Shown one piece after another: positions 3,201-63,300 of a stretch of DNA of 64,000 bases; the first letter of the stretch is position 1; every line of letters starts with the position of its first letter. This stretch comes from Sipunculus nudus (lineage: Eukaryota > Annelida > Sipuncula > Golfingiida > Sipunculidae). The notes beneath the pieces are model-generated. The model was not told where the DNA came from. It worked only from the letters and a program-made list of their open reading frames with translations, and made no database searches. A program made the position numbers and the translations under genes. The DNA is taken from NCBI GenBank assembly GCA_026874595.1, contig CM049315.1, forward strand, positions 9,337,664 to 9,401,663, given 5' to 3'.

Positions 3201-5540
3201 CGTTTCGACACCGTTCGACCTACGAATCTGAAATTCGGCATACAGTTAGATGTCCCCAAAATCTCCTACCATGCCAAAAATTGGGTCAATATGACATTGT
3301 TCCTTCGAGATATTAAGGAAAAAACCTCAATATTTATTAGAAATCTATTTTCACACTTCAGGACTGCCTAATATCAAAACCACTCATCTGGTTTTCTTCA
3401 TTTTTCCCATAAATATTCCTCTATATGGTTCCTATGTAAATGCCAGAAATTAAGTCAGTATTATTTAATTTAAAAAAGTTATGGGCCCAAATATAATGGA
3501 CTTTGTAAAAAAATGAGGAAAGATATTTTGTCACTTAAGACCAAATGTGTTAAAGGTAGGAATTTTTTTTTCAGTAATACTACTTTAAATAATCAAAATT
3601 GAATTGTATACCAAAAATTAGATCAAAATCTGTTAATTTTTTTTAAATATTGGCAAAAATATAAAATTGGTAACTTAAATTTTGCCCAAGTTTGACCATG
3701 GCACGTTTTTTTTCCTGTAACTGCTGTGGATTTAATTTTCAAAGCATGTTTTTGTTACCATTTCAACTGTTAAAACAAAAAAATTGAAACCAGTTGATCA
3801 AAAACTGTAGATTTTATTCAAGTTTTAAAGCACCATGTCGTATATTGTTTACACCAAGCTAGTGTTATGCAGTTTACTAGAGATCAGCTCCCCAGCTTCA
3901 GCTCTAAGTTCCTTAAATTTTGCATACAGTTATATGTCCCCCAAATCCTCTACCATACTAAAAGTTTGGTCACTAGGACTGCATTCCTTCGAGATATTAA
4001 GAAAAAACTTCATTTTTCCATTAAAACCCCATTGTTACACTTTAAGATTGCCTAATATCAAAACCACTGATCTGACTTTGATAATATATAATATACATAT
4101 TTTTCTATACATTCGCTATGCATATGCCAGAAATGATGTCAGTATCATGTAATTGTTTTAAGTTCTAGGCCCAACCATAATGCACTTTGTAAAAAATCAA
4201 TAAATATATTTACTCTCTTAACATGAAAATTGCTGAAGGTAGACATTTTTTGCCAGGGATATAACATTATTTAATCAAGATTCAATTGTATTCCCAAAAT
4301 TAGTTCTGAATTTTTCAAATTTTATAAGTTATTAGCATAAATATAAAATCAGTACCTTAAATTTTGCCCAACTTTGGCCATGGCATGTTTTTTCCCTGTA
4401 AGCACTGTTGATTTAATTTTCATATCTTGCACTGGTAAGGATTTAAGCTTCTAAATTCTGAAGTTATAAAAGGATTTGGTCAAAAACTAGCTTTTATGAA
4501 AGTTTTTATGAGACCATATCACACCTTGGCTGTACTGAAGCCCCTCTTTTATGTCCCCACATTGACCTTTCAGGCCAATTATGCATGCTTGAAGTGAGGC
4601 ACTCTGCAGCCAGCCAGCTCTTGGGTGGCTTCAACTGGATCTAACTGTCCAACCCCCTCCACTAGTATTTGTTTAGGCCATAAACAGAACAATAAACTTT
4701 TTTTTTAATATTTGGTTTATGATAAAAACTTAAAAAAATAAATGGAAAAGGAATTTATAGTTAATGAGTTACAGGGGATTACCTTGCAATTACTGATCAT
4801 TTATGGATCTTCCATGGATGGCCAAAATTGTATTTCAAATAACACCATGCAGTCACAAACAATTACAAAAAGCCATTACAAAATTAAAATAATAAATAAA
4901 TATGTCAAAAATTTAAAATATTACTCAGACAAGTGTTCATTAAAGATTTTAATTTGTTTGACTTATAACTCATGGTTGTATCAGTTGTTACATGAGACTG
5001 GCTAAATAATCAAAATTTATATTGCTGGTCCTTTATTTCAGTTAATAAAATTAAACATTCCCAACTCCAGTTTGCTCCTGGTATGATATATTGGGTGTTT
5101 TGATCCTTGGATTAATTTTAACACATGTATTAGTTTTATAGCTGAGAATACTTTTCTTTTTTTCCTGATACCATTTAAAAAAATATAAATATTCAAATTT
5201 TTCCTGTTAGTGCTGTGGATATAATTTTCACAGCATGTACACATTAACATTTCATCTGTTAAAATCTGAAATTTGAAACCAATTGATCAAAAACTGTAGA
5301 TTTTATTCAAGTTTCCAGGTACCATGTCTTCATTGTTTGCATCAGATCAGTATAAATGCAGTGTACTGGGCAGTTACATAACACCTTCAGGTCTGACCTA
5401 CTGCCACTGTGAGTTGTCTGGGTCAGGCTGGGTCAGGCAGTAATTACCAGAGAGCCTCTCTTTCTCTCTCTGGCAGTCTAGGTCTCTCTTTCTCTCTCTT
5501 TCTCTCCTCTGCTTTTTCTTTTTCTTTCTCCATCTTTCTT

Positions 5541-5603
<63 letters not shown>

Positions 5604-6756
5604 AATTGCCTCCCTTGCTCCCTCCATCCCATTCTGTTGACAGGTACTATAAACTAGATACATTAGCTATAAATGTTGATGCAATCTAGAAATGTGAATC
5701 AACTGAAATATTCACAATCACATGTATGTTATACTGTAAATTTATAGTAACATTCAGAAACTTGGATTAAAATTATGTAATGAAAAAAGGGAATAAATGC
5801 AAATATTGTTAATTTTTTCTTGGCTCAGTAGAATGGGGAAAAAATTATTTGCTTTGTTTCTCCATCTTTCTTTCTGTTTTAAATATTTAATGTTCATGAA
5901 TAAACTTTTTTTTATAAGCACTGTTGAATTAAATTTCATATCCTGTATGTATATGCAAGGGTGTTGTAACTCTCACCATCCCCTTCTTCATCCCACTGAG
6001 GCTTTGCTCCTTGGCACTGTGAACAATAGTTCTATGGCTATAGCATAAAATTTAATAATTAAAGAAAATATCTACAGAGAGACGGAGGCATTGTAACTCT
6101 GATCATAACACAACACCCCTCCCCCCCCCCCTATCAAGTCATTGCACCTGTGGAATGAGGACGTTATGGCAACTGTATACATATCATAAAATTGATAAAA
6201 AAGGTTTACCAAATAAATTGGATCTCATCAGACAAATGTGTAAACTGTTGAACTGTCAACAGCTTATCAAAAAGGTAACCAATGGAAAGGCATGGTCAGG
6301 TCTCAATTGGGTGTTTTGATCCTTGGATTAATTTTAACACATGTATTAGTTTTATAGCTGAGAATACTTTTCTTTTTTTCCTGATACCATTTAAAAAAAT
6401 ATAAATATTCAAATTTTTCCTGTTAGTGCTGTGGATATAATTTTCACAGCATGTACACATTAACATTTCATCTGTTAAAATCTGAAATTTGAAACCAATT
6501 GATCAAAAACTGTAGATTTTATTCAAGTTTCCAGGTACCATGTCTTCATTGTTTGCATCAGATCAGTATAAATGCAGTGTACTGGGCAGTTACATAACAC
6601 CTTCAGGTCTGACCTACTGCCACTGTGAGTTGTCTGGGTCAGGCTGGGTCAGGCAGTAATTACCAGAGAGCCTCTCTTTCTCTCTCTGGCAGTCTAGGTC
6701 TCTCTTTCTCTCTCTTTCTCTCCTCTGCTTTTTCTTTTTCTTTCTCCATCTTTCTT

Positions 6757-6817
<61 letters not shown>

Positions 6818-9800
6818 AATTGCCTCCCTTGCTCCCTCCATCCCATTCTGTTGACAGGTACTATAAACTAGATACATTAGCTATAAATGTTGATGCAATC
6901 TAGAAATGTGAATCAACTGAAATATTCACAATCACATGTATGTTATACTGTAAATTTATAGTAACATTCAGAAACTTGGATTAAAATTATGTAATGAAAA
7001 AAGGGAATAAATGCAAATATTGTTAATTTTTTCTTGGCTCAGTAGAATGGGGAAAAAATTATTTGCTTTGTTTCTCCATCTTTCTTTCTGTTTTAAATAT
7101 TTAATGTTCATGAATAAACTTTTTTTTATAAGCACTGTTGAATTAAATTTCATATCCTGTATGTATATGCAAGGGTGTTGTAACTCTCACCATCCCCTTC
7201 TTCATCCCACTGAGGCTTTGCTCCTTGGCACTGTGAACAATAGTTCTATGGCTATAGCATAAAATTTAATAATTAAAGAAAATATCTACAGAGAGACGGA
7301 GGCATTGTAACTCTGATCATAACACAACACCCCTCCCCCCCCCCCCTATCAAGTCATTGCACCTGTGGAATGAGGACGTTATGGCAACTGTATACATATC
7401 ATAAAATTGATAAAAAAGGTTTACCAAATAAATTGGATCTCATCAGACAAATGTGTAAACTGTTGAACTGTCAACAGCTTATCAAAAAGGTAACCAATGG
7501 AAAGGCATGGTCAGGTCTCAAATATTATTTGCAACATTTTCTTCAATCATATAAACCAACCATGGCCCAGATTACCTCTTCCTCTCAAACAATATCTACA
7601 TTTCATCATATTTTTAAGATTTTAACCTTCCAGGTGGTTCAGTACTGTTGACCATTTGTCCATAGGTACCTATGTACATGCCAGAAATTATGTCAATATT
7701 GTGTAATATGTAGATGTGAGGGGCATCAAAATAATGCACCTTGTCAAGACCGATCTTGTCAAGATATTATGTCATACAGTCACAAATTCATAAATCCCCT
7801 CATCAGTATAGTTAATCATAACCTTTTATCTGTCAAATTGAACTCTTGCAGTTTTCCATACACTATAGATCCTTCAACAAATAGCCTTATCATCATTATA
7901 CCACTGCTTAGCATACTGTCATTGCATTCATATTTGCTCAAATAAATTGCTTTTTTCGACCCCTCCCAAATAAATAAAAAATAAACCACTATATTTTACT
8001 CCATATTAATCCATCAGTCAGGTTATTTCATATATCATTTACTCACATATTACATTATATTCCTTTATAAAACCCAACATGACCATGATATTCTAAGCTT
8101 TATCTACTCAATATAGTATCACAATGGTGATACATTTATAGTCCAATCAGGATCAGCTGAGCGCCGTGACCCATGGGTCCCTTGTTTAGCTCAGCTGACT
8201 ATAAGTCATCTGAGCTATAGTCGTGGTCCATTGTCCGTCATCCGTCCGTCTTTCTGTCTGTCCGTCCATCCGTCCTAATATTTTAACTTATAGTTTCAGT
8301 TTTTTACTCTGTATATATAATGATTGCAACTTTTGCAACAATTCTAATATTTTAACTTATATTTTCAGGTTTTTTTTATTAAAAATTTATAAAACCTGTA
8401 AATAAAAAAAATGATTCAGATAAAAACTTCTTAATGGAAAAAGTGGATATGCTTAAAAAAAATAGGATTATATATAAACTTAAATGCATTATTCCCTTGA
8501 AAGTGAAATAAAGGTATTAGTCCATTCTGTCCACTTGCCTGTCCATCTGTAAATTTTCATATGCATCACAGTATTTCAAAATTTTACTGTTTTTCTTCAT
8601 GACAGTCTTGTCAGAGTATTAGTTTGCAATCATATATTTAGAACTTTACTATAACGAAGTAGGAGGGCCCCTGTCCTCTTAGCTTTTCATATTCTTATAT
8701 AAATGAAAAACATTACAATAGAATATTTCTACATCCACCTTCGTGCTGCCCTCACTTTTCCCTTCTCCAAACCCCATCCCAAAGTCAGCCTCAGTTAGCA
8801 AGAACAAGATAAATCAGATATATTCATACTTTAATATTTTGTATAACTATTCGTCCATGGGTCCCTTGTTTTCAAGTTCTTAGGATAAATGTAAAATCAA
8901 TACCTTAAATTTTGCTCAACTATGACCATGGCACATTTTTTCCCTGTTAACACAGTTGATTTAATTTTTATGGCATATGTATACACATAAGGATTTAAAA
9001 TCTGAAATGTCATAGGAATTGATCAAAAAGAGTAGCTTTTATTCAGACACCATGTAAAGTAATTTCAAGGGAATTTATCAAAAAGAGTAGCTTTTATTCA
9101 GACACCATGTAAAGTATTGTTTACATCAAGCCAACCCAGTACAGTGGTGCGCAGTGAGTGATGCAGCCCTCACCTATGTACCTTCATTCACTCCAGGAAG
9201 CTTCCGTTGCTCAGCTTAGCTAGGCTTCCAGCTTTTGTTTATATATTCCTAATGTCAGGTATATGCATTGCACCTGTGTGAAATACTTGTTATAATAATC
9301 ATAAACACTTAAAATGTTATAACAGTTATGAGATGGAATAAAATAATACAGGAAAATACTCAGTCTCACTGAGGTTAATGCAGTACATCCAGGTTTGTAG
9401 AATATTATAATGTGCTAGGATTATTGTGAACACATTCTGTGATACTCTGGTATATTGAACCACAGAACAAGCTTAATAGTAAGCTTTTGTTGTTTTGTTG
9501 TAGACTAAAATCACTGGATCTGGTGACCATGAAGAAACTGGACAGCAAGGTGAACATCATTCCCGTTGTCGCAAAGGCAGACACCATCACCAAGCAGGAG
9601 CTACAGAAGTTTAAAATCAAGGTACGCAATGAAAGTGGTTATAAGTAATCAGAGGTTTAACTTTCAATGTTATTGATAACAATCTTTTGATGATATAGTG
9701 GTCTCCTAACATTTAATACCCAAGCCTGTAAAATCATCTGTGCAGAATGTGTGCTATAATGCCTAACATATAAAGTTAGGAAGCTGTTAAAACAATTTTT

Positions 9801-15800: not shown

Positions 15801-18800
15801 TCAGCTGATAATAAAGATTTTCTCATAATCAATTTCAGCTCAGTACCATTACCCACAGGTCACTTGTTTATATGTATTTTGGAAACAAAAGAATAATTTG
15901 AGAAGAATAGTCAAACTATTTTAGAGTAAGCCCTCTTTGCTTTTAATTTACATTACAGAAAGTTACGACCACCAAAAGTCACTTTTGGTAAACAATGATT
16001 AAGTATAGCAGTTTCCACAAGAATGCCTGCAGAAGTAACAAGCTAAATTTAAGTTCCAAAGTGTGATCTCTATGTGTTGTTTCCTGAATTGAAGGTGAAA
16101 TATATTGTCAGAATTGCAAGTTTTCTCACACATACAAGTTACTTGTTAGTGGATTGATGTCATTCACTCTGCTTCATTCAGGGTCATGTCCCTTTTGCGG
16201 TTGTTGGCAGCACCGATGAGATCAAGGTCGGAAACAAAATGTTGCGGGCCCGTCAGTATCCATGGGGAACTGTTCAAGGTAACTATATATGTACAAGAAA
16301 TATCTTACAACTCTCACAAGTAAGATAATAAAATGGTATAGAACCAAGTAATCAGCATTTTTGATGCATCCAAATTTCATCAATTTTATCTTTTTATTTT
16401 GTTAACTTTAATGGGGGCACATGGTCTTTTTCTTTTATCATTTTGAGATTCAGCTGACAGTGGTCCTTTGATAATTTAATTACACAATGAATAATCTTTA
16501 TCGTTTTTCACTAAAATTAATCCTCAAGTATATTTGATTTGATTTTTTTGCCAATCTACTTCCAGGACCTTTAAGAGCTATTGTGATACATTACAAAATG
16601 TGTTTGTTAAAAAACAGTATAGTTGAGACTTGTTGCCATTTTATTGCTAATATGGGAGTAATGAGGCATTTTGAAATTAAAATGCCTTTTCAGTCCTGCC
16701 CCTTGTATCATTGTTAAAAAATTATAAACAAAGTTGCAGGGCTACTGTCTATGCAAGATTATGTTTATACAAAAAAGGAAAGAGTAATTGAGGATTCAGA
16801 TTTATCACCTTGATTAAAACAGACTCAAGGATTACAGCTTCGTTTCATCTCTTGCTTACTGTAAATCCCTCAAAAGAAGATGCATCTTGTGTTACAGTAA
16901 TTAATTTTCAAAGATTTAGATATGTTACCAATGTCAAAGTGCCACTTCTATTGCAGTAAATTTTTTATGATGTTTTACAGTGGAAAATGAAAACCATTGT
17001 GATTTTGTGAAACTGCGGGAGATGCTGATAAGAACAAACATGGAGGATTTGCAAGAAACCACACACTGCCGTCACTATGAACTGTACCGTCGCTGTAAGC
17101 TGCAAGAAATGGGCTTCTCTGATAATGATTCCATGAGGTCAGTACTTGATGTATTCTTTCAAATATAAAGTTAAAAATGTTGGTCAGTTTCTGTTTATAT
17201 ACAAGCCTGTTCAGTCATCCTTACAATAGACACATCATACTTGTCACTTGCCTGCTTATGTTTTCAGGTGTCCATGGTTTGCATTTACAGATGTAATCTA
17301 ATCATAATTCCGGTTGTCTAATGTCTTTTGTCTTATCTTGACATCTGTTATTAACATATTCATATGGGTATCATCTTCATCCTTCAGTTGACAGTGCTAC
17401 TGATGGGCCATGGACTGATCCTTTTAAGAATAAAGGATGATCAGTTGCAATTTCTATTTTTTTTTAGTCTGTCAAAAATGTATCACCACAAAAGGAACGA
17501 TCAAATACCGTTTCTGATTTCTTTTCAGTCTTTCAGAAACATATCAACACAAGAGGAATGGTCAGATGCCATTTCTAATTTCTTTTCAGTCTGTCAGAAA
17601 CGTATCAACACAAGAGAAATGATCAGATATCTTTTCTAATTTCTTTTCACTTTGTCAGAAACGTATCAACACAAGAGAAATGATCAGATACCATTTCGAA
17701 TTCTTTTTAGTCTGTCAGAAATGTATCAACACCAGAGGAATGATCAGATGCCATTTTTAAATTTCTTTTCAGTCTGTCAGAAACGTATCAACACAAGAGA
17801 AATTATCAGTTACATTTATTGATTTCTTTTCAGTCTGTCAGAAATGATTCAGCACAAGAGGAATGATCAGATACCATTTCTAATTTCTTTTCAGTCTGTC
17901 AGAAACATATCAACACAAGAGAAATGATCAGATACCATTTCTGATTTCTTTATAGTCTGTCAGAAACGTATCAACACCAGAGGAATGATCAGATGCCATT
18001 TTTAAATTTCTTTTCAGTCTGTCAGAAACATATCAACACAAGAGAAATGATCAGATACCATTTCTAATTTCTTTTCAGTCTGTCAGAAATGTATCAACAC
18101 AAAAGGAATGATTTCTTTTCAGTCTGTCAGAAACGTATCAACACAAGAGAAATTATCAGATACCATTTCTAATTTCTTTTCAGTCTGTCATAAACGTATC
18201 AACACAAGAGAAATGATCAGATACCATTTCTAATTTCTTTTCAGTCTGTCAGAAACGTATCATTACGAGAAATGATCAGATACCATTTCTAATTTCTTTT
18301 CAGTCTGTCAGAAACATATCAACACAAGAGAAATAATCAGATACTATATCTAATCAGATGCCATTTTTAATTTCTTTTTAGTTTGTCAGAAAGGTATCAA
18401 CACAAGAGGAATGATCAGATACTATATCTAATCAGATGCCATTTCTAATTTATTTTCGGTCTGTCAGAAAGGTATCAACACAAGAGGAATGATCAGATAC
18501 CATTTTTAATTTCCTTTTCAGTCTGTCAGAAACTTATGAGCACAAGAGGAATGATCAGATACTATATCTTATATAGATGCCATTTCTTATTTCTTTTCAG
18601 TCTGTCAGAAAGGTATCAGCACAAGAGGAATGATCAGATACCATTTCTAATTTCCTTTTCAGTCTGTCAGAAACATATGAGCACAAGAGGAATGATCAGA
18701 TACTATATCTAATATAGATGCCATTTCTAATTTCTTTTTAGTTTGTCAGAAACAAACAACACAAGAGGAATGATCAGATACCATTTCTTATTTCTTTTCA

Positions 18801-19567
18801 GTCTGTCAGAAACATATGAGCACAAGAGGAACGAACACATGGCTGACATGCAGAAGAAGGAGGAGGAAATGAGACAGATGTTCGTGGTCCGTGTCAAAGA
18901 GAAGGAGAGCGAGCTGAAGGATGCTGAGAAAGATGTAGGTGGACACACTTACTTGTTATAAGTAAAGATAAACCAGTTTTGTCATTCCTATAATGAGGCA
19001 TCCATAACATTGCTTTTCTCATTGGTAAAAGTAATTTACCTATATTCATCTATATTTCTGAAAGTGACAAGTACTGGTTTCATTTTTCGAGTTTTAATGT
19101 TGTATGTTAATGAGTTTCAGTAAATTGGATTTCCTAACACTGCAATCATATATATCATGATGGCTTGAGAACAACATTCTGTCTCAGGAGGTGTAAATGA
19201 ATAAGGCTTTGTTCAAATCTGAGTTAATTTTACAATAACTCCACCACAATGGTACAGTTTATTGGGGATTTGGCCTCACTTTTCATAGCGGAAATAAAAA
19301 TTGTTCGCAATACCTAGGTCTCCAAGTGGAAGTTGTGGACAGCATTGTTGCTTTAATTTACCAGTAGTTTTAATTTTTTCTGACCTGTCCCTATATTTCT
19401 TATTTCCACAGCTGCATGCCAAATTTGACACCCTGAAGAAACAGCATGCCGAGGAAAAGAAGAGAATGGAGGACAAGAAACGCATTCTGGAGGAAGAAAT
19501 AGCACAGTTCCAGCGCAAGAAGGCCATGGCTCAACAGCAAGCCACCATGGGAAAAAGAAAGAAGTGA
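134..19567 (+). CDS. Septin gene (SEPT6/8/11 group), 3' eight coding exons; 5' end outside window
   Basis: Septins are GTP-binding proteins that polymerise into hetero-oligomeric filaments at the cell cortex and division site. Eight exons (134-215, 730-870, 9504-9621, 10393-10482, 16182-16278, 16981-17137, 18802-18934, 19412-19567) have AG/GT borders and join in phase into 324 residues plus stop. Visible signs: G3 motif DTVG (visible residues 15-18), G4 motif AKAD (98-101), the septin signatures [13 protein letters not shown] and ARQYPWG, and a charged C-terminal coiled coil in the last two exons. The coiled coil and the sequence favour the SEPT6/8/11 group, whose other members are GTPase-poor; the residues deciding that here are upstream. 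About 100 residues (N-terminus, P-loop) are missing from the window. No lesions were seen, and all phases agree, so this gene looks functional. Which paralogue it is cannot be settled by eye. Confidence 0.95.
730..870 (+). CDS. Septin exon, GTPase core (IVDYIDAQF ... [12 protein letters not shown])
   Basis: The acceptor is TTTGTGTGCAG and the donor is GTATGT. The exon completes the Ser codon of the previous exon and encodes a strongly conserved part of the septin GTPase domain, including [16 protein letters not shown] and LYFVAPTGH. It ends two bases into a Ser codon, matching the next exon more than 8.6 kb downstream. Confidence 0.96.
1042..2505 (+). mobile_element. (GTCC)n-core interspersed element, copy 1 (interrupted, 3' end missing)
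   Basis: The head reads TTTAGCTCAGTTGACTGTAA, a near-palindrome, followed by a GTCC/CCGT-rich stretch and the phrase GTTAACAGGGCACATTTTGG that recurs in the other copies. The body is interrupted at 1326-2361 by another insertion and resumes at 2362. The characteristic tail (GTGACCCATGGGTCCCTTGTT) is absent. It is non-coding. It is possibly a pearl/Helentron-type non-autonomous element, by structure only. Confidence 0.7.
1318..2369. mobile_element. hAT-like non-autonomous insertion nested in copy 1
   Basis: The insert of about 1036 bp begins AGGGCTCGCC and ends GGCGAATAGCCC, so its ends are imperfect inverted repeats. It is flanked by TGTAAATC (1318-1325) and TGTAAATG (2362-2369), a 7-of-8 target duplication. 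Other copies of the host repeat (for example near 3435) read straight through as TATGTAAATGCCAGAAATTA, which supplies an empty site. No transposase was seen. An 8 bp duplication and the AGGG-type ends suggest hAT; this is an inference. Confidence 0.65.
2510..3060 (+). repeat. Satellite, ~130 bp units with GGTGCCATCTGCAAT motif
   Basis: Diverged units share CAAGACTRGTGGYGCCA followed by TCTGCAAT or ACCTGCCAT, then TTTGTAGAATA and CTCAGRASTGG. Motif copies start near 2530, 2680, 2805 and 2930. The same family recurs at 11440-11880 in the same orientation. No coding potential is apparent. Confidence 0.65.
5091..6306. repeat. 1.2 kb tandem duplication, first copy
   Basis: This 1216 bp unit starts TTGGGTGTTTTGATCC and ends GGCATGGTCAGGTCTCAA. 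It is followed directly by a nearly identical copy. It includes a long (CT)n tract at about 5538-5600 and a C tract near 6120. No gene was seen; open frames through the CT tract are low-complexity artefacts. Confidence 0.95.
6307..7521. repeat. 1.2 kb tandem duplication, second copy
   Basis: This 1215 bp copy starts immediately after the first. Positions of matching landmarks show an offset of 1216 before the CT tract, 1214 after it and 1215 after the C tract. The only length differences therefore appear to lie in the CT and C homopolymer tracts. Confidence 0.95.
8187..8870 (+). mobile_element. (GTCC)n-core interspersed element, copy 3 (short)
   Basis: The head (TAGCTCAGCTGACTATAAGT) follows directly on the CTTGTT tail of copy 2, and the end at 8851-8870 is TCGTCCATGGGTCCCTTGTT. 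At 0.68 kb it is a compact, near-complete version. Its 3' half matches 32.9-33.3 kb closely, for example CCATTCTGTCCACTTGCCTG against CCATTCTGTCCACTTACCTG. Confidence 0.75.
8871..9235 (+). repeat. Body fragment of a (GTCC)n element with a ~50 bp local direct repeat
   Basis: The block carrying CTTAAATTTTGCTCAACT and GACCATGGCACATTTTTTCC matches the bodies of copies 2, 4 and 5. Within it, the phrase AAAAAGAGTAGCTTTTATTC plus CAGACACCATGTAAAGTA occurs twice in succession (about 9026-9058 and 9080-9114). Confidence 0.7.
9504..9621 (+). CDS. Septin exon with G4 (AKAD) motif
   Basis: The acceptor is TTTGTTGTAG and the donor is GTACGC. The exon encodes the septin signature [20 protein letters not shown] followed by [23 protein letters not shown] is the guanine-specificity (G4) loop. 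It ends on a codon boundary. Confidence 0.97.
9622..10392 (+). other. Septin intron, no feature seen
   Basis: This is AT-rich sequence between two septin exons. I saw no exon, no element from the repeat families of this window and no obvious structure in it. Confidence 0.7.
10393..10482 (+). CDS. Septin exon ([20 protein letters not shown] ...)
   Basis: The acceptor is ATTTAACACAG and the donor is GTAAGT. The exon is 90 bp, exactly 30 codons, and ends [10 protein letters not shown]. The phrase [11 protein letters not shown] is highly conserved in SEPT6-group septins. Confidence 0.97.
10800..11890 (+). repeat. Satellite, long units (~325 bp, then ~275 bp)
   Basis: The phrase GGTCATGACCTTT plus GACCTTGAATATT recurs near 10805 and 11130, a spacing of about 325 bp. 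The second half carries the CAAGACTGGTGGCGCCATCT motif near 11445 and 11728. A related block lies at about 45860-46090. Similar GTCATGACCTTTGACCTTG repeats are common in bivalve genomes; that is recalled, not checked. Confidence 0.7.
12583..12971 (+). repeat. Diverged (GTCC)n-element head
   Basis: The head TTTTTAGCTTAGTTGATTGT-AAGTCAACTGAGCTATAG is followed by CTCCGTCTGTCTGTCTG but not by the usual body. It then runs into the phrase GTGGGGTCATGAGGTCAAAG-like text at 12843-12890 that also occurs at 46190-46400. No tail was found before the next element begins at 12972. Confidence 0.6.
12972..15589 (+). mobile_element. (GTCC)n-core interspersed element, copy 4 (2.6 kb)
   Basis: The head TTTTTAGCTCAGCTGACTAT is followed by CCGTCCGTCTGTCCGTCCGT and by CACGTTTTGAAACCGT. 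The tail CAGCTGAGCGTCGTGACCC-ATAGGTCCCTTGTT ends at 15589. The body contains two consecutive versions of the same block (13100-13700 and 13730-14330). No open frame resembles a protein. Confidence 0.7.
16182..16278 (+). CDS. Septin exon ([20 protein letters not shown] ... [10 protein letters not shown])
   Basis: The acceptor is CTTCATTCAG and the donor is GTAACT. The exon encodes the G-domain segment ending with ARQYPWG, one of the most conserved septin phrases, and ends one base into a Val codon that the next exon completes. Confidence 0.97.
16279..16980 (+). other. Septin intron, no feature seen
   Basis: This is AT-rich intron between two clear septin exons. I recognised no repeat family or coding segment in it. 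Confidence 0.7.
16981..17137 (+). CDS. Septin exon ([17 protein letters not shown] ... [13 protein letters not shown])
   Basis: The acceptor is GATGTTTTACAG and the donor is GTCAGT. The exon encodes the end of the GTPase domain: [30 protein letters not shown] and EMGF. It ends two bases into a Ser codon, whose last base must come from the next exon at 18802. Confidence 0.97.
17430..18801 (+). repeat. Tandem array of 3' splice sites: ~21 copies of the intron end plus exon start
   Basis: The unit is about 61 bp: ~29 bp of intron end (AATTTCTTTTCAG) followed by ~32 bp matching the start of the septin exon at 18802 (TCTGTCAGAAACRTATSARC). TCTTTTCAG-type sites start near 17459, 17520, 17581, 17642, 17702, 17764, 17825, 17886, 17947, 18009, 18070, 18114, 18175, 18236, 18295, 18373, 18451, 18512, 18592, 18653 and 18733; the genuine one is at 18793. 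Most keep the AG. Towards the exon the spacing alternates 61 and 80 bp, a 141 bp higher-order unit. Reading from a decoy site soon meets a stop, because 61 is not a multiple of three. Confidence 0.95.
18802..18934 (+). CDS. Septin exon, start of C-terminal coiled coil
   Basis: The acceptor TTTCTTTTCAG at 18793-18801 is the last of the tandem series, and the donor is GTAGGT. After completing the Ser codon the exon reads [20 protein letters not shown] and continues [25 protein letters not shown], matching the family's ETYEAKR...EEEMRQMFV segment. Heptad-like charged sequence begins here. This copy was chosen because only it continues in frame into the coiled coil. Confidence 0.96.
18935..19411 (+). 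other. Septin intron, no feature seen
   Basis: This is a short AT-rich intron before the terminal coding exon. Nothing was recognised. Confidence 0.7.
19412..19567 (+). CDS. Septin terminal coding exon (coiled coil, stop TGA)
   Basis: The acceptor is TTATTTCCACAG. The exon encodes [20 protein letters not shown] and continues to a basic end, MGKRKK, with TGA at 19565-19567. The coiled coil mediates pairing within septin filaments. The C-terminus is short compared with vertebrate SEPT8/11 tails; other splice forms cannot be excluded. Confidence 0.95.
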
Positions 19568-55105: not shown

Positions 55106-56010
55106 TTAACAGTGTCTTGTTTTTTTCTGTTTTGAACTTTCTGTAGTTTCCTTTGGCGGTACTTGTGTAAATGCCTTTTTATTAACCATGGTAGACTGGT
55201 TCTCAGCCACTTTCTTATTCACCATAATTTCTGGTCTAACGATATCTTGTTCTCTCTCTATAGTTGCACTTTCCTTTGAAGCTCTCAAGTGTTTTCTATT
55301 TCTCCTGTATACACTTCCATCCTCTGTTCTCACTTGGCATGATCTGATATCTACCTGGCCTTCTACACTGGCTTTCACCCAATTTCTATTTCTACCAAAT
55401 GGCTTAATCCTGACTGTATCTCCTTCCTTCAATTTATTTAGCTCTTTTACACTTCTGTTGTAGTACTTAGTCTGTTTCTCTTTGCGTTTCTTTAAACCTT
55501 GTTTTACATCTGTCGCGATCTGGGGTTCTAACAATCTAGCTGTCGTCGGTAGCAGTGTTTTGGTCCTTCTACCAAAAATTCTCTGGCGAACAGTTAAGAC
55601 CTTCTGTCGGGGTATTCCTCCAGTCAAGGATAGCAAGGTATGGATCATTTTTGTCCAGCAAAGACTTCTCCATTAACCTCTCTACAGTTATAACTGCGTT
55701 ATCTACTTTCCTGTTGGATTGAGGATATCTCGGCGAGCTTGTCACATGCTGCATCTCATATTTCTGCACAAAATCTTGAAAATCTCTACTGTTATATGGT
55801 GGTCCATTATCAGAAAATATGACATCTGGTATGCCATGCCTATCTATATGAGCTTTAAGTTTGGTCAATACATCTTTGGCTGTTTTACTATCCAGTCGGT
55901 CCACCTCAAAGAAATCAGAATAGTAATCAACAGTAATTAGATAGTCCCTGTTGTTGAACATGAACAAATCACAACCACTTTTTTCCCCTTGGCCTGGTGG
56001 GAATCTCATG
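55106..56010 (-). pseudogene. Integrase core and C-terminal domain of the LTR element
   Basis: Overlapping frames cover the DDE core: DLFMFNNRDYLITVDYYSDF near 55950, SDNGPPY near 55800, and SPRYPQSNRKVDNAV near 55700, where the family has G-x-V/A-E; the catalytic Glu appears as Asp. The C-terminal part has KLKEGDTVRIKPF and VRTEDGSVYRRNRKHLR, typical of Ty3 integrase tails. A frame change occurs near 55600. Confidence 0.88.
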
Positions 56011-56889
56011 ACTTATCATTGGTTTCTTTTGTTGCTGACTTTGACATTGGCTGCAAATAGCACATTTTCCTACATGGTCCTCTATGTCTCTACACATGTT
56101 AGGCCAATAGACGCATTCTCTAGCCCTTCCCATGCAATATTGGATTCCAATATGACTAGAGTGTAGTCTATCCAGTATCTCTTGTCTCATACTATATGGT
56201 ACAACCACGCGTTCACCTTTGAAGATCAGTCCATTTTGTACTGATAACTCCTCTCTGAAGGTATAGTTTGTCTGTTTACTGTTTGGTACTTTGTCCTTAG
56301 ATACAGGCCAGCCATCCTGAATGACTGATTTCAAAGTGTTTAATTCAGTATCCTGTTCAGTTGCTTTCTGAATTCTTTTCAGGCGCTCCTCTGTGATTGG
56401 TACATAATGTAACATGTCAATGTGTTTAGTTTCAATTTCGATTTCTGACCGGATTTTAATTTTCAGTATCTCATCTGGTTTTCTCACTTTGACAGTGTGC
56501 GGCAGGTATGCTCTACTGAGCGCATCAGCTACATGCATTTCAATACCCTTCTTGTAGGTGACATCATAATCAAATTTCTGTAGCCTCAACAGCATTCTCT
56601 GCAATCTTTTTGGAGCTGAAAGTAGGCTTTTCCTGCAGATAAATTCCAATGGTTTATGGTCAGACTCGACCTTTACTTCCCTGCCATAAGTGTAATTTAC
56701 CGATCTCTCCATTCCGAACAGCACAGCTAAAAGTTCCTTCTCGATTTGTGCATATCTGCACTCGGTTGCCGTTAGCGATCGAAAAGCATATGCTACAGGA
56801 TGTCCTTCCTGGAGTAAACAAGCTCCCAGCCCTGACTCACTAGCATTACATTGTAGTGTCGTCTCTTTATCAGGATTAAAATATTTCAA
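55969..56889 (-). pseudogene. RNase H and integrase zinc-binding domain of the LTR element
   Basis: One open frame of 306 codons. RNase H: TLQCNASESGLGACLLQEGH (the family has D where N stands in CNAS), RYAQIEKELLAVLFGMER and VESDHKPLEFI. Then the integrase HHCC finger: LHSSHIGIQ, YWPNMCRDIEDHV and CAICSQC. The Asp-to-Asn change would remove an RNase H metal ligand. Confidence 0.9.
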
Positions 56890-57049
56890 AACTGGTGTCT
56901 CTCAGAGAATTTTCTTGACTTGTCTCAGCGATTTTCCTTGTACTTGTTCATCCCATATGAACTCAGTTTTCTCTCTAAGCAAGTCACGGATTGGTGCGGT
57001 AGCTTCAGACAGACTTGGAGCAAACCTAGTTTACTAGTCCCAATAGTCT

Positions 57050-57634
57050 CTATACACCTTGCTTATTCTCTAGTTCTGGCATCTCCATTACTGCCTTGAC
57101 CTTATGTGGATTTACTTTCAATCCATCTGACGATATGATGTGACCCATGTAAGCCACTTGATCCAGTCGCAGTTTCAGTTTATCTTTATTCAGCCGAATA
57201 TTCTCTCGTCTGCATCTCTCCAGCAGTGCATTTAGCTTCCGGTCATGATCTCGTACAGCTTCTTCATCGCTGTCTCCAACACCATATATTAGTATGTCAT
57301 CATGTATGGCTTTAACACCATCCAGTCCTTCCAGAACCTCATTCATTCTCCTCTGGAATTCTTCCGGAGACGGTGATAGTCCGAAAGGTAGGCGCTTCCA
57401 GCAGTATCTACCCCATGGTGTTGAGAATGTAGTCAGATAGCTACTTTCTTGATCCAGTTCTATGTGCCACGGCCCATTTTTGGCATCAGCCACAGTGAAC
57501 ACACGAGCCTTGGTCAATTCTGGTAATATATCATCAATAGTCGGAGTTGGATAGTGGTTACGTTTCAAGGCTTGGTTTAACGGTTTAGGATCGATACAAA
57601 GTCTCACCTTCCGATTCGGCTTCCTAACCACCAC
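57050..57634 (-). pseudogene. Reverse transcriptase of the LTR element
   Basis: The frame reads RLCIDPKPLNQALKRNHYPT, VFTVADAKNGPWHIELD, RYCWKRLPFGLSPSPEEFQR and GVKAIHDDILIYG, then MGHIISSDGLKVNP. These are Ty3 RT blocks, with the DD pair in HDDIL. The 5' part (KDIIVPVDTP, 57640-57700) is in a different frame, and a break near 57040 separates it from RNase H. Confidence 0.92.
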
Positions 57635-57879
57635 AAGAGCTGATATCCAGTTTAAGGTGTGTCCACAGGTACTATAATGTCTTTCTCTGTCAGTCGCTTT
57701 AACTCATCCTTGAGTCTGCCTTTTATAGCTACTGGTACCTTTCTGGTTGGCACATTTCTGAATGTAACTTTCATTTGAGCTTTCTTTCACCATTAAATAC
57801 ATCACTGTAAGTATGTAGTATGGTTTCCTTCGGTACTGGTTGTGTAAGGTCTGGTGTGACGTGAACTGATGTTTGTTTT

Positions 57880-60683: not shown

Positions 60684-62175
60684 TTATAGTCTAACTTGCT
60701 CCAATTTAGCTTTTGGAACCGGCAGTTTGTTATTACTCTGCGATCTTAAACCTCTCCTATGTTCATATTCTAGAAGTGATTGCAAATATACTGGGGCTGA
60801 CCTATTGACACACTGATAAACAAACACAAGAACTTTATAACTGGTTCTTTCTCTAATTTTAAGCCAGTGAAGATCTCCAAGCACTGGAGAGATTCTCTCA
60901 TACTTTCTAAGGCCACACACTGTACGAGCTGCCTTATTCTGAATCAACTGTAGTTTTGATATAAAACATTCATGTGCACCAAGCAAAAGGCTGTTGCAGT
61001 AATTCAGGTGTCTAACAACTAACCCTTGTATTAAAATTTGAATATTTTCTGTTGTTAATGACTGTTTAACCCTGTTAATATTTTTCAGGGTCAGGTAAGA
61101 AGAACAACAACGTTTGATAATATGTTCTTTACGTTTCATTTGTCTGTCCATATAGTATCCTAGATTTCTCACAACAGGTTTTGCCGTGATGTTTTCTTCA
61201 CCTATCAGAACTGCAATTTCCCCCAATTTTATTTAACTGCTGTTGTGTACCAAAAACAATACATTCTGTTTTTTCATCATTCAGTTTTAACAATTTTGTC
61301 CTTTTCCAGAGTCTGATGTCCCTAACACAGTTTTCTAAATTCCTGATAAAATTATTCCTACTCATTTGTGATCCTGATTTAAATAACATATATAATTATT
61401 TGTCATCAGCATAACACATAAAACTAACATTATGTCCCCTACATATATCTCCTATAGGGGCTGTGTACAAATTATATAGTACCGGTCCCAGTATAGACCC
61501 CTGAGGAACACCGCAGCTCAAGACTGCCTTTCCTGATGTTACATCCCCTACTAAAACTGACTGAGTTCTACCTTTCATGTATGATTGTAGCCAAGACAGC
61601 ACATTCCCATTGATACCGTACCTAAATCTTAACCTTTTTAACAACAAACAGTGATCAACAGTGTGAAACGCTGCACTCAAATCAAGTAGAATGACACACA
61701 TTACTTCTTGTTTATCAATAGCTTTCCATATATCGGTATGAAATTTTAACAAAGCTGTTTCAGTTGAGCTGCCTGTTCTATAAGCAGCTTGACATTGCTC
61801 AGTTTTACCAATTTTTCTAAAAGTATGTTCCACAAGCTGGTTACAAGCTGCTCTTTCAATTAACTTCCCTAAAAATGCCAAATTTGATACAGGTCTATAG
61901 TCCTTTTCTGTCAAAGTAAGTCCCACTTTTTTAAGAAGAGGTCTTACTAAAAATGTTCTGAGGCAACTTGGAAAAACACCCTGTTGCAGCAAAGCGTCGA
62001 TAATATTCTTAAACACAGGCACAAAAATGTTAGAATAGTTTTTCACTAGGTATGTAGGGATGTGATCTAACTCACAACTTTTGTTTGCTAATTCACAAAG
62101 CAAGATGTTCACTGCCTTATCATCCAGCAATGCAAAATCACAGAAACAATTATCTTTTTCTAGAATTGATTCCAC
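60684..62175 (-). pseudogene. LINE reverse transcriptase and C-terminal domain
   Basis: RT motifs in order: CELDHIPTYLVKNY, KDYRPVSNLAFLGKLIE, QAAYRTGSSTETALLK, LLDLSAAFHTVDHCLL, CGVPQGSILGPVLYNLYTA and CYADDK. Directly after YADD the frame meets TAA at 61398-61396, then continues in the same frame (LYMLFKSGSQ). A frameshift follows near 61210, after which NLGYYMDRQM ... NKAARTVCGL continues to 60684. Confidence 0.9.
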
Positions 62176-62417
62176 ATACTTTTGGACAATATCTTATGGA
62201 TTTACAGGTTTAAGCCCATCCATGATTTTGGCTATTTTGGATATGAAGAAGTTATTAAACTGCTCAGCAAGGGTAAAATTATCAGAGCACTTTGGTAAAG
62301 GTAAAGTCTCTTTCCGGAACAGTAGCTGGTTAGACAGTTTATAGATTATGTAATCCCCTTTATGGTTTTAAAACAAACTCCTATAATTTTCCTGTCTTGC
62401 ATGTTTCAATTTGTAAT

Positions 62418-63300
62418 TTACAACCGTCTATAATGTTGAAAAGCTCTATAGCTTGATTTATCACGTCTCCTTTTCCAGACTCTTTCCTTTTGTTGCCTTT
62501 GTTTTATATCATCCTTGAGCTCATCAGTGAGCCATGGTGTTGGGTTTCTTTCTTTGACCTTGAAAGTCTTCACTGGAGCAGGATTATTTGCCAAAGTTTC
62601 ATGATAATTATTGTAACTTGACATTATTTGGTCCAAACTCTCCATGGTAATTTTATCAGTTAATTCATTCAAGTCTGAAGCAAACAAGTCTTTATCTATT
62701 TTCTTCCATAATCTTTTCCTGATTGTTTGGTTTATCATTCTGTCAGTTTTAACTTCCATATCAAATTCTATAAAACAGTGTTCTGATATAAAATGTCCTT
62801 GTTGGATGTTTCTAACAACAGAAGAGTCATTTTCTGATAGCACTAGGTCAATTTTGTGACCAGCAGTATGGGTAGGAAAGTTAACATAATTGCCTAAATC
62901 AAAACTTTCCATCATGTCCCGCAAAAGTGAAGTTTCATTATTATTTGGTTGGTCTATTTTGATGTTAAAATCTCCAACCACCACAAGGTGACTAGTTCTA
63001 TTAATATTGATTTTAAGTACTGAGCCATACTATTAAAAACTCCACTACACTGGAACCTGGAATTCTATAAAGTACACAGATGGTTATATTATTTGTTGGT
63101 GTTTCCAATCTAAAGTCAACACATTCTACATTGGGAAACTGATATTCTTCTTCTGTGCATATATGATATTGTTCCTTATGTATCAAAGCTATTCTACCAC
63201 CCCTGCGCCCTGTTTTCCTTGGTACAGACAATACTTGGTAAGAAGGAAGAGCTATTTCCTTTACTGGTTCTGTTTGATCTGATAACCATATTTCTGTCAA
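62418..63300 (-). pseudogene. LINE endonuclease domain
   Basis: AP-endonuclease-like motifs: TEIWLSD, GRRGGRIALIHK and CVLYRIPGS in one frame (63013-63300), then VVGDFNIKID, HKIDLVLSE and SEHCFIEFDM in another (62418-62984). The final SDH motif appears as SEH. One frameshift near 63000. Confidence 0.88.

Follow-up and report, generated by a model that had tools for sequence, protein, structure and literature searches.

A large part of a septin-6-type gene lies in the 64-kb stretch of Sipunculus nudus DNA analysed here (hereafter the window; contig C10), and PF00735 matches four exons of this gene. These include, on the forward (+) strand, a coding exon with AG/GT borders at 16182..16278 (PF00735 match C10:9353839-9353940) and the exon at 16981..17137 (PF00735 match C10:9354640-9354777), which is further supported by its frame and ends at a phase-2 donor, ATGAG|GTCAGT. 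On the same strand, the phase-2 intron that follows would extend from 17138 to 18801, up to a 133-nt exon (18802..18934; donor GAT|GTAGGT) that opens the coiled coil; the last coding exon, read from sequence together with its stop codon, lies at 19412..19567 (+).

The donor after 17137 and the exon at 18802-18934 were placed by sequence and protein continuity, and both agree with what had originally been predicted for this gene from sequence and frame. When 17137 is joined to 18802, the protein aligns across the junction with Septin-6-type chains, with no gap there in 4kv9, and the 148 C-terminal residues of the spliced septin have Septin-6 as their closest PDB chain (E 5.7e-55). In the same PDB comparison, 2qag_B and 9bht_B carry four extra residues immediately before the junction, which indicates that small length changes are borne at this place.

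Structure of the array

The intron upstream of the 133-nt exon holds a tandem array in which the intron/exon border itself is repeated. A junction-motif search identifies 22 copies, with the last base of the AG at positions 17467 to 18801: 21 decoys and the predicted true acceptor (18801|18802). The decoy units occupy 17440..18773 (+ strand), each comprising a 28-nt intron part and a 33-nt exon part, and correspond in the unit alignment to the true unit at 18774..18834 (+), which consists of the last 28 nt of the intron and the first 33 nt of the exon. Sixteen of the 21 spacings measure 59-62 bp, four (towards the 3' end) measure 78 or 79 bp, and one, the result of a 17-bp deletion, measures 44 bp. 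The original prediction had described about 21 tandem decoy 3' splice sites in front of a septin exon, with a unit of about 61 bp lying across the border and with the junction sequence kept in most copies, and this description is confirmed. The 23-nt core TTTCTTTTCAGTCTGTCAGAAAC is exact in 7/21 decoys and within one mismatch in 14/21; AG is kept in 19, being lost at 17650 (AC) and 18459 (GG).

When up to 6 mismatches in 23 are allowed, a scan of the 64-kb window on both strands yields the junction motif at these 22 places only (24 at 7 mismatches), which excludes chance as an explanation. When the complete array and two of its units were used as queries against the 1.43-Gb assembly, in searches whose counts are lower bounds, the matches listed comprised only the septin array; since the array stands at one place among these matches, one haplotype is seen in the assembly.

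Individual decoys are 72-95% identical to the true unit. At the exon end, the units form three dimers in a row, at intervals of about 141 bp (u17-18, u19-20 and u21-22; 18432..18834, + strand), the last of which pairs decoy 21 with the true border. These dimers are 89-94% identical (pairwise identity 0.926, 0.893 and 0.935), and u20 (0.95) and u18 (0.92) rank with the units most similar to the true border; u11 reaches 0.93 over its shortened length. Given the similarity of the exon-end dimers and the closeness of u20 and u18 to the true border, the latest growth of the array seems to have involved copying of the true border itself. Decoy 1, the outermost unit (u01; 17440..17500, + strand), is among the most diverged, with an identity of 0.80 to the true unit and 0.83 to the consensus; near it in divergence are u07 (0.80 and 0.84) and u14 (0.81 and 0.86), and the lowest values, 0.72 and 0.79, belong to u12 because of its deletion. 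The GGAACGA of the true exon is kept in u01, far from the exon, and the inner units mostly read GGAATGA or GAAATGA. This pattern of units is in keeping with minisatellite turnover of the ordinary sort that started from the exon border.

Border-spanning arrays elsewhere in the genome

A combination of TRF, self-comparison and reading of other loci revealed three further border-spanning arrays, all of them at donors. One belongs to the same septin gene: at its P-loop exon, just upstream of the window on C10 (locus L012, 70-369), the donor TATG|GTAAGATT is present in 9 copies of 33-35 bp. Another lies at an exon of a septin gene on C11 (L008, 1660-3150; donor TCAAA|GTAAGTC), with 26 copies in view, mostly of 37 bp, and the third at an exon of a kinase gene on C4 (L073+L089; donor CTAAG|GTAGATAC), with 26 copies in view, mostly of 65 bp, and an array that reaches the end of the examined sequence. 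In the L008 array, an insertion at about 1897-2380 breaks the run of copies; by eye, the inserted element resembles a tRNA-derived SINE with a poly-A end. The exon body is continued by the first copy in the three donor arrays and by the last copy in the septin array of the window; in all four, the copy predicted from protein continuity to be used adjoins the exon body and gives the shortest exon. The original prediction knew of no described septin gene with this arrangement; a peculiarity of septin is not supported, as like arrays lie at three other borders (two septin, one in a kinase gene) and the kind is described in amphioxus. Similar arrays at other borders, one of them in a kinase gene, suggest a general mutational process.

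The frequency of such arrays was assessed in 20 of 54 internal kinase exons, a sample not chosen for repeats, and a border-spanning array was present at one of the 20, exact borders having been mapped for part of them. At another of these exons (L069) an array begins just past the donor; this array and those of L041, L015 and L084 were rejected as border arrays on reading, as the exon border is not spanned. Coverage by arrays of at least three copies amounts to 5.1% in the 20 kinase loci, as against 2.5% in a further 30 kinase loci and 2.2% in the window, and, set against a coverage of 5.1%, a single border array in 20 exons indicates no excess at borders. Among 15 loci with septin matches, self-comparison, which needs an overlap of at least 10 nt with the Pfam match, found no border array; TRF then showed the one in L008, which had been missed because the exon end lies beyond the Pfam match. 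Genome-wide, a test for enrichment of donor-like arrays with AGGTAAGT triplets gave 1,032 matches versus 662 for a reversed control; the matches, of which the first places were listed, cluster in few arrays, and the difference is no clear sign of enrichment.

Predicted consequences of decoy use

The exon preceding the array was joined in silico to each of the 21 decoys, including the AG-less positions 17650 and 18459. In 20 of the 21 resulting frames, translation would end within the array, at a stop codon that lies 220 to 1,315 nt short of the final exon junction. Stops located farther than 50-55 nt upstream of the last junction render an mRNA a target of nonsense-mediated decay; with stops at least 220 nt before that junction in 20/21 decoys, decay of the mRNA is expected, and these decoy-spliced mRNAs are predicted to be decay-prone, with truncated septins unlikely to accumulate. 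Decoy use had been proposed to lead to an early stop and hence to a septin without its coiled coil. The early stop is present in these 20 frames, but decay would be expected in place of a truncated protein, and the remaining decoy behaves differently: decoy 21 (18714..18773, + strand; junction 18741|18742), 60 nt upstream of the true acceptor, is in frame and stop-free, and its use would add 20 residues and leave the coiled coil intact.

At two decoys (18381-18394 and 18600-18613), AAAG|GTATCA is found 12 nt past the acceptor position, which in theory allows in-phase microexons of 12 nt.

Predicted choice of the last acceptor

The polypyrimidine tract and the AG are largely common to the decoys and the true site. 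A branch-point candidate of the TGAT/TAAT type (motifs sought: TGAT, TGAC, TAAT and TAAC only) lies about 28-30 nt upstream of the true site and also precedes 15/21 decoys, and the branch point was accordingly rejected as the discriminator of the true acceptor. In contrast, the exon itself is distinctive. Purine-rich GAR hexamers, from a list of our own choice, number 15 in the 133-nt true exon versus 10 in the 1,334-nt decoy array. Scored with human weights, the donor of the exon (18935) reaches 5.5, whereas no site within the array exceeds 4.6. Finally, the exon length up to donor 18935 is 133 nt from the true acceptor versus 193 to 1,467 nt from the decoys. It had been surmised that a branch point or exonic signals might be found only at the last copy; the former suggestion fails, given the candidates at 15/21 decoys, and the latter is supported by the difference in GAR hexamers.

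As most decoys equal the true site in tract, AG and branch-point candidate, the choice of acceptor is most likely made across the exon, and the features in which the exon differs (GAR density, donor score, shortest length) make exon definition point to the last copy. No excess RNA folding was detected in 17440-18039, which represents 600 bases of the array (z 0.55). No spliced retrocopy was found in the genome, where a 247-base spliced query produced 5 matches, accounted for by three exons of the gene itself and by two of the decoys.

We favor, with considerable though not full confidence, a neutral border minisatellite in which the last acceptor is normally used and splicing is fixed by exon definition. 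The minisatellite would have arisen via tandem duplication across the intron/exon border (a 'mirage'), inside the intron and upstream of the true border. The array is probably neutral, with normal mRNA using the last acceptor only: of all the copies, this acceptor would have the shortest distance, 133 nt, to the donor of the exon with which it pairs, and it adjoins a stretch dense in purine-rich, enhancer-like motifs. Were a decoy used now and then, the outcome would be a decay-prone mRNA or, from the nearest decoy, a 20-residue insertion. Two possibilities had initially been put forward, an acceptor-choice device producing truncated septins and reliable skipping of the array by the spliceosome; skipping is the better supported, with 20/21 frames expected to lead to decay and the nearest decoy predicted not to truncate.

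Conservation of the decoy sites and alternative explanations

One rival explanation is regulated acceptor choice coupled to decay, in which a used decoy would bring array sequence with a stop into the mRNA and the ensuing degradation would tune septin dose. The AG kept in 19/21 decoys and the stops in 20/21 frames, none of them nearer than 220 nt to the last junction, are in line with such a mechanism, as is the variability of the units: the 23-nt junction core varies at 25/482 letters (5.2%) among decoys versus 73/755 (9.7%) for the rest (one-sided rank test, p 0.007, with 17 columns of u12 left out and with units that share ancestry), and this lower variation could mean constraint. When ranked among 61 circular windows, however, the junction core comes only 4th in this respect. 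Across the four arrays, AG/GT is kept in 76/79 decoys (septin acceptor 19/21, L012 8/8, L008 24/25, kinase 25/25), but AG itself is not specially conserved, as numerous other dinucleotides of the units match or exceed AG/GT in how often they are kept (septin acceptor 29/59, L012 15/32, L008 11/35, kinase 25/63). Among the three donor arrays, a core of ±9 is less variable in two and not in the kinase one, in alignments that, being anchored at the junction, favour the core. Overall, these comparisons could accommodate some constraint and give no clear sign that the decoy splice sites are maintained. Enhancer-like motifs dense only in the true exon, a best-scoring donor that is the exon's own, and like arrays at other borders, including that of the kinase gene, which suggest a general mutational process, further speak against regulated choice, and we consider it unlikely.

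Leaky, low-level splicing to decoy 18741, through which a small share of the septin would carry 20 additional residues ahead of the coiled coil, appears quite unlikely as well. This decoy is in frame and stop-free, its 193-nt exon leaves the donor unchanged, and the four extra residues of 2qag_B and 9bht_B suggest that the place bears some length change; against this, the insert contains a hydrophobic run (FHFLFLF-like by eye), 4kv9 aligns without a gap at the junction, and the acceptor is TAG, not CAG. An assembly artefact in the repeat is very improbable: tandem repeats are error-prone, but the ordered unit-to-unit differences, the 44-bp unit, the dimers about 141 bp apart and the occurrence of four different border arrays in one assembly speak against an artefact, and identities of 72-95% between decoys and true unit argue against simple misassembly.

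Comparison with known systems

The favored reading, a neutral minisatellite at an exon border, has precedents. A human minisatellite with multiple splice donors, in IFI6/G1P3 (6-16), was reportedly described by Turri in 1995. According to another source, two downstream repeat units of IFI6 serve as donors, which results in three mRNA species (PMC4526556). As in the septin array, a splice site at the edge of an exon is multiplied by a minisatellite; IFI6 represents the donor side and its repeats are used, whereas the septin array consists of acceptor decoys that are predicted to be unused.

Closer to the present case are the 'mirages' of amphioxus, which two papers present as minisatellites lying across exon borders in genes whose mRNA seems to be spliced in the regular way (PMC3087553, PMC3902484); Adh3 data and globin RT-PCR are reported to suggest this (PMC3087553). 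In the BflGb6 globin gene, the repeat units measure 150-160 bp and number 6 in one haplotype and 3 in another (PMC3087553), and a mirage-type array is present in PGBD5, with Adh and troponin C cited as further cases (PMC3902484). Mirages resemble the septin array in that the 3' end of an intron, together with the 5' part of the exon, is copied in tandem like a minisatellite, with repeated splice signals, and they affect both types of border, as do the arrays of the Sipunculus nudus genome. The septin unit likewise spans the border (28 nt plus 33 nt) and repeats the splice dinucleotide (AG in 19/21 decoys); it differs from BflGb6 in phylum and in scale, with 21 decoys of about 61 bp versus 6 and 3 units of 150-160 bp. 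An abalone TSSK1-like gene provides an intronic minisatellite in a mollusc, with a 27-bp unit in intron 3 and a copy number that differs among individuals; border coverage is not described in the available part of that report (PMC6905558). A literature search that covered few subscription papers showed no border array beyond amphioxus and IFI6, and no acceptor array outside the lancelets. The septin array looks like a border minisatellite of the kind first described in lancelets, and not like a special septin switch.

The interest of the array lies in its recurrence in the genome and in the natural test of exon definition that it provides. If only the last of 22 acceptors, or the first of 9 to 26 donors, is used, such arrays constitute in vivo tests of exon recognition at near-equal splice-site strength, and their presence outside the lancelets would mean that intron/exon change could stem from 'mirages' more widely than the amphioxus papers suggest. 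A broader proposal is possible but doubtful: splice-site minisatellites may occur at a few per cent of exon borders, at donors and acceptors and twice in one septin gene, supplying spare sites for exon/intron gain, with up to 26 near-identical sites in competition and the shortest exon prevailing.

Additional observations

Several features unrelated to the array were recorded in the window and in the assembly. In the window, bases 5090-6100 are repeated at 6306-7314 (1,011 bases, 1,216 bp downstream, 99.8% identity, in a comparison that ended at 6100), a repeat whose near-identity marks it as a recent local duplication. Frames for a retroelement integrase, RNase H and reverse transcriptase are found on the - strand at 55569-57703 and 61396-62193, and an endonuclease match under the Pfam cut-off at 62418-63029. 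Elsewhere, phosphagen-kinase exons are matched dozens of times along C16:44157300-44530205, mostly at intervals of about 6.3 kb, in what is a long tandem gene array. The nearest PDB chains of an arginine-kinase-like exon are taurocyamine kinase 4wo8 and arginine kinase 4rf6. Strong COX1 matches occur on contigs C60, C61, C62, C66, C72, C74, C75, C89 and C123, and a short one on C5; among 11 matches in all, of which those on C60 and C123 were read, no complete mitochondrial COX1 was recognised. With C60 and C123 bacterial-looking by their neighbouring frames, the assembly seems to hold bacterial contigs, perhaps from symbionts.
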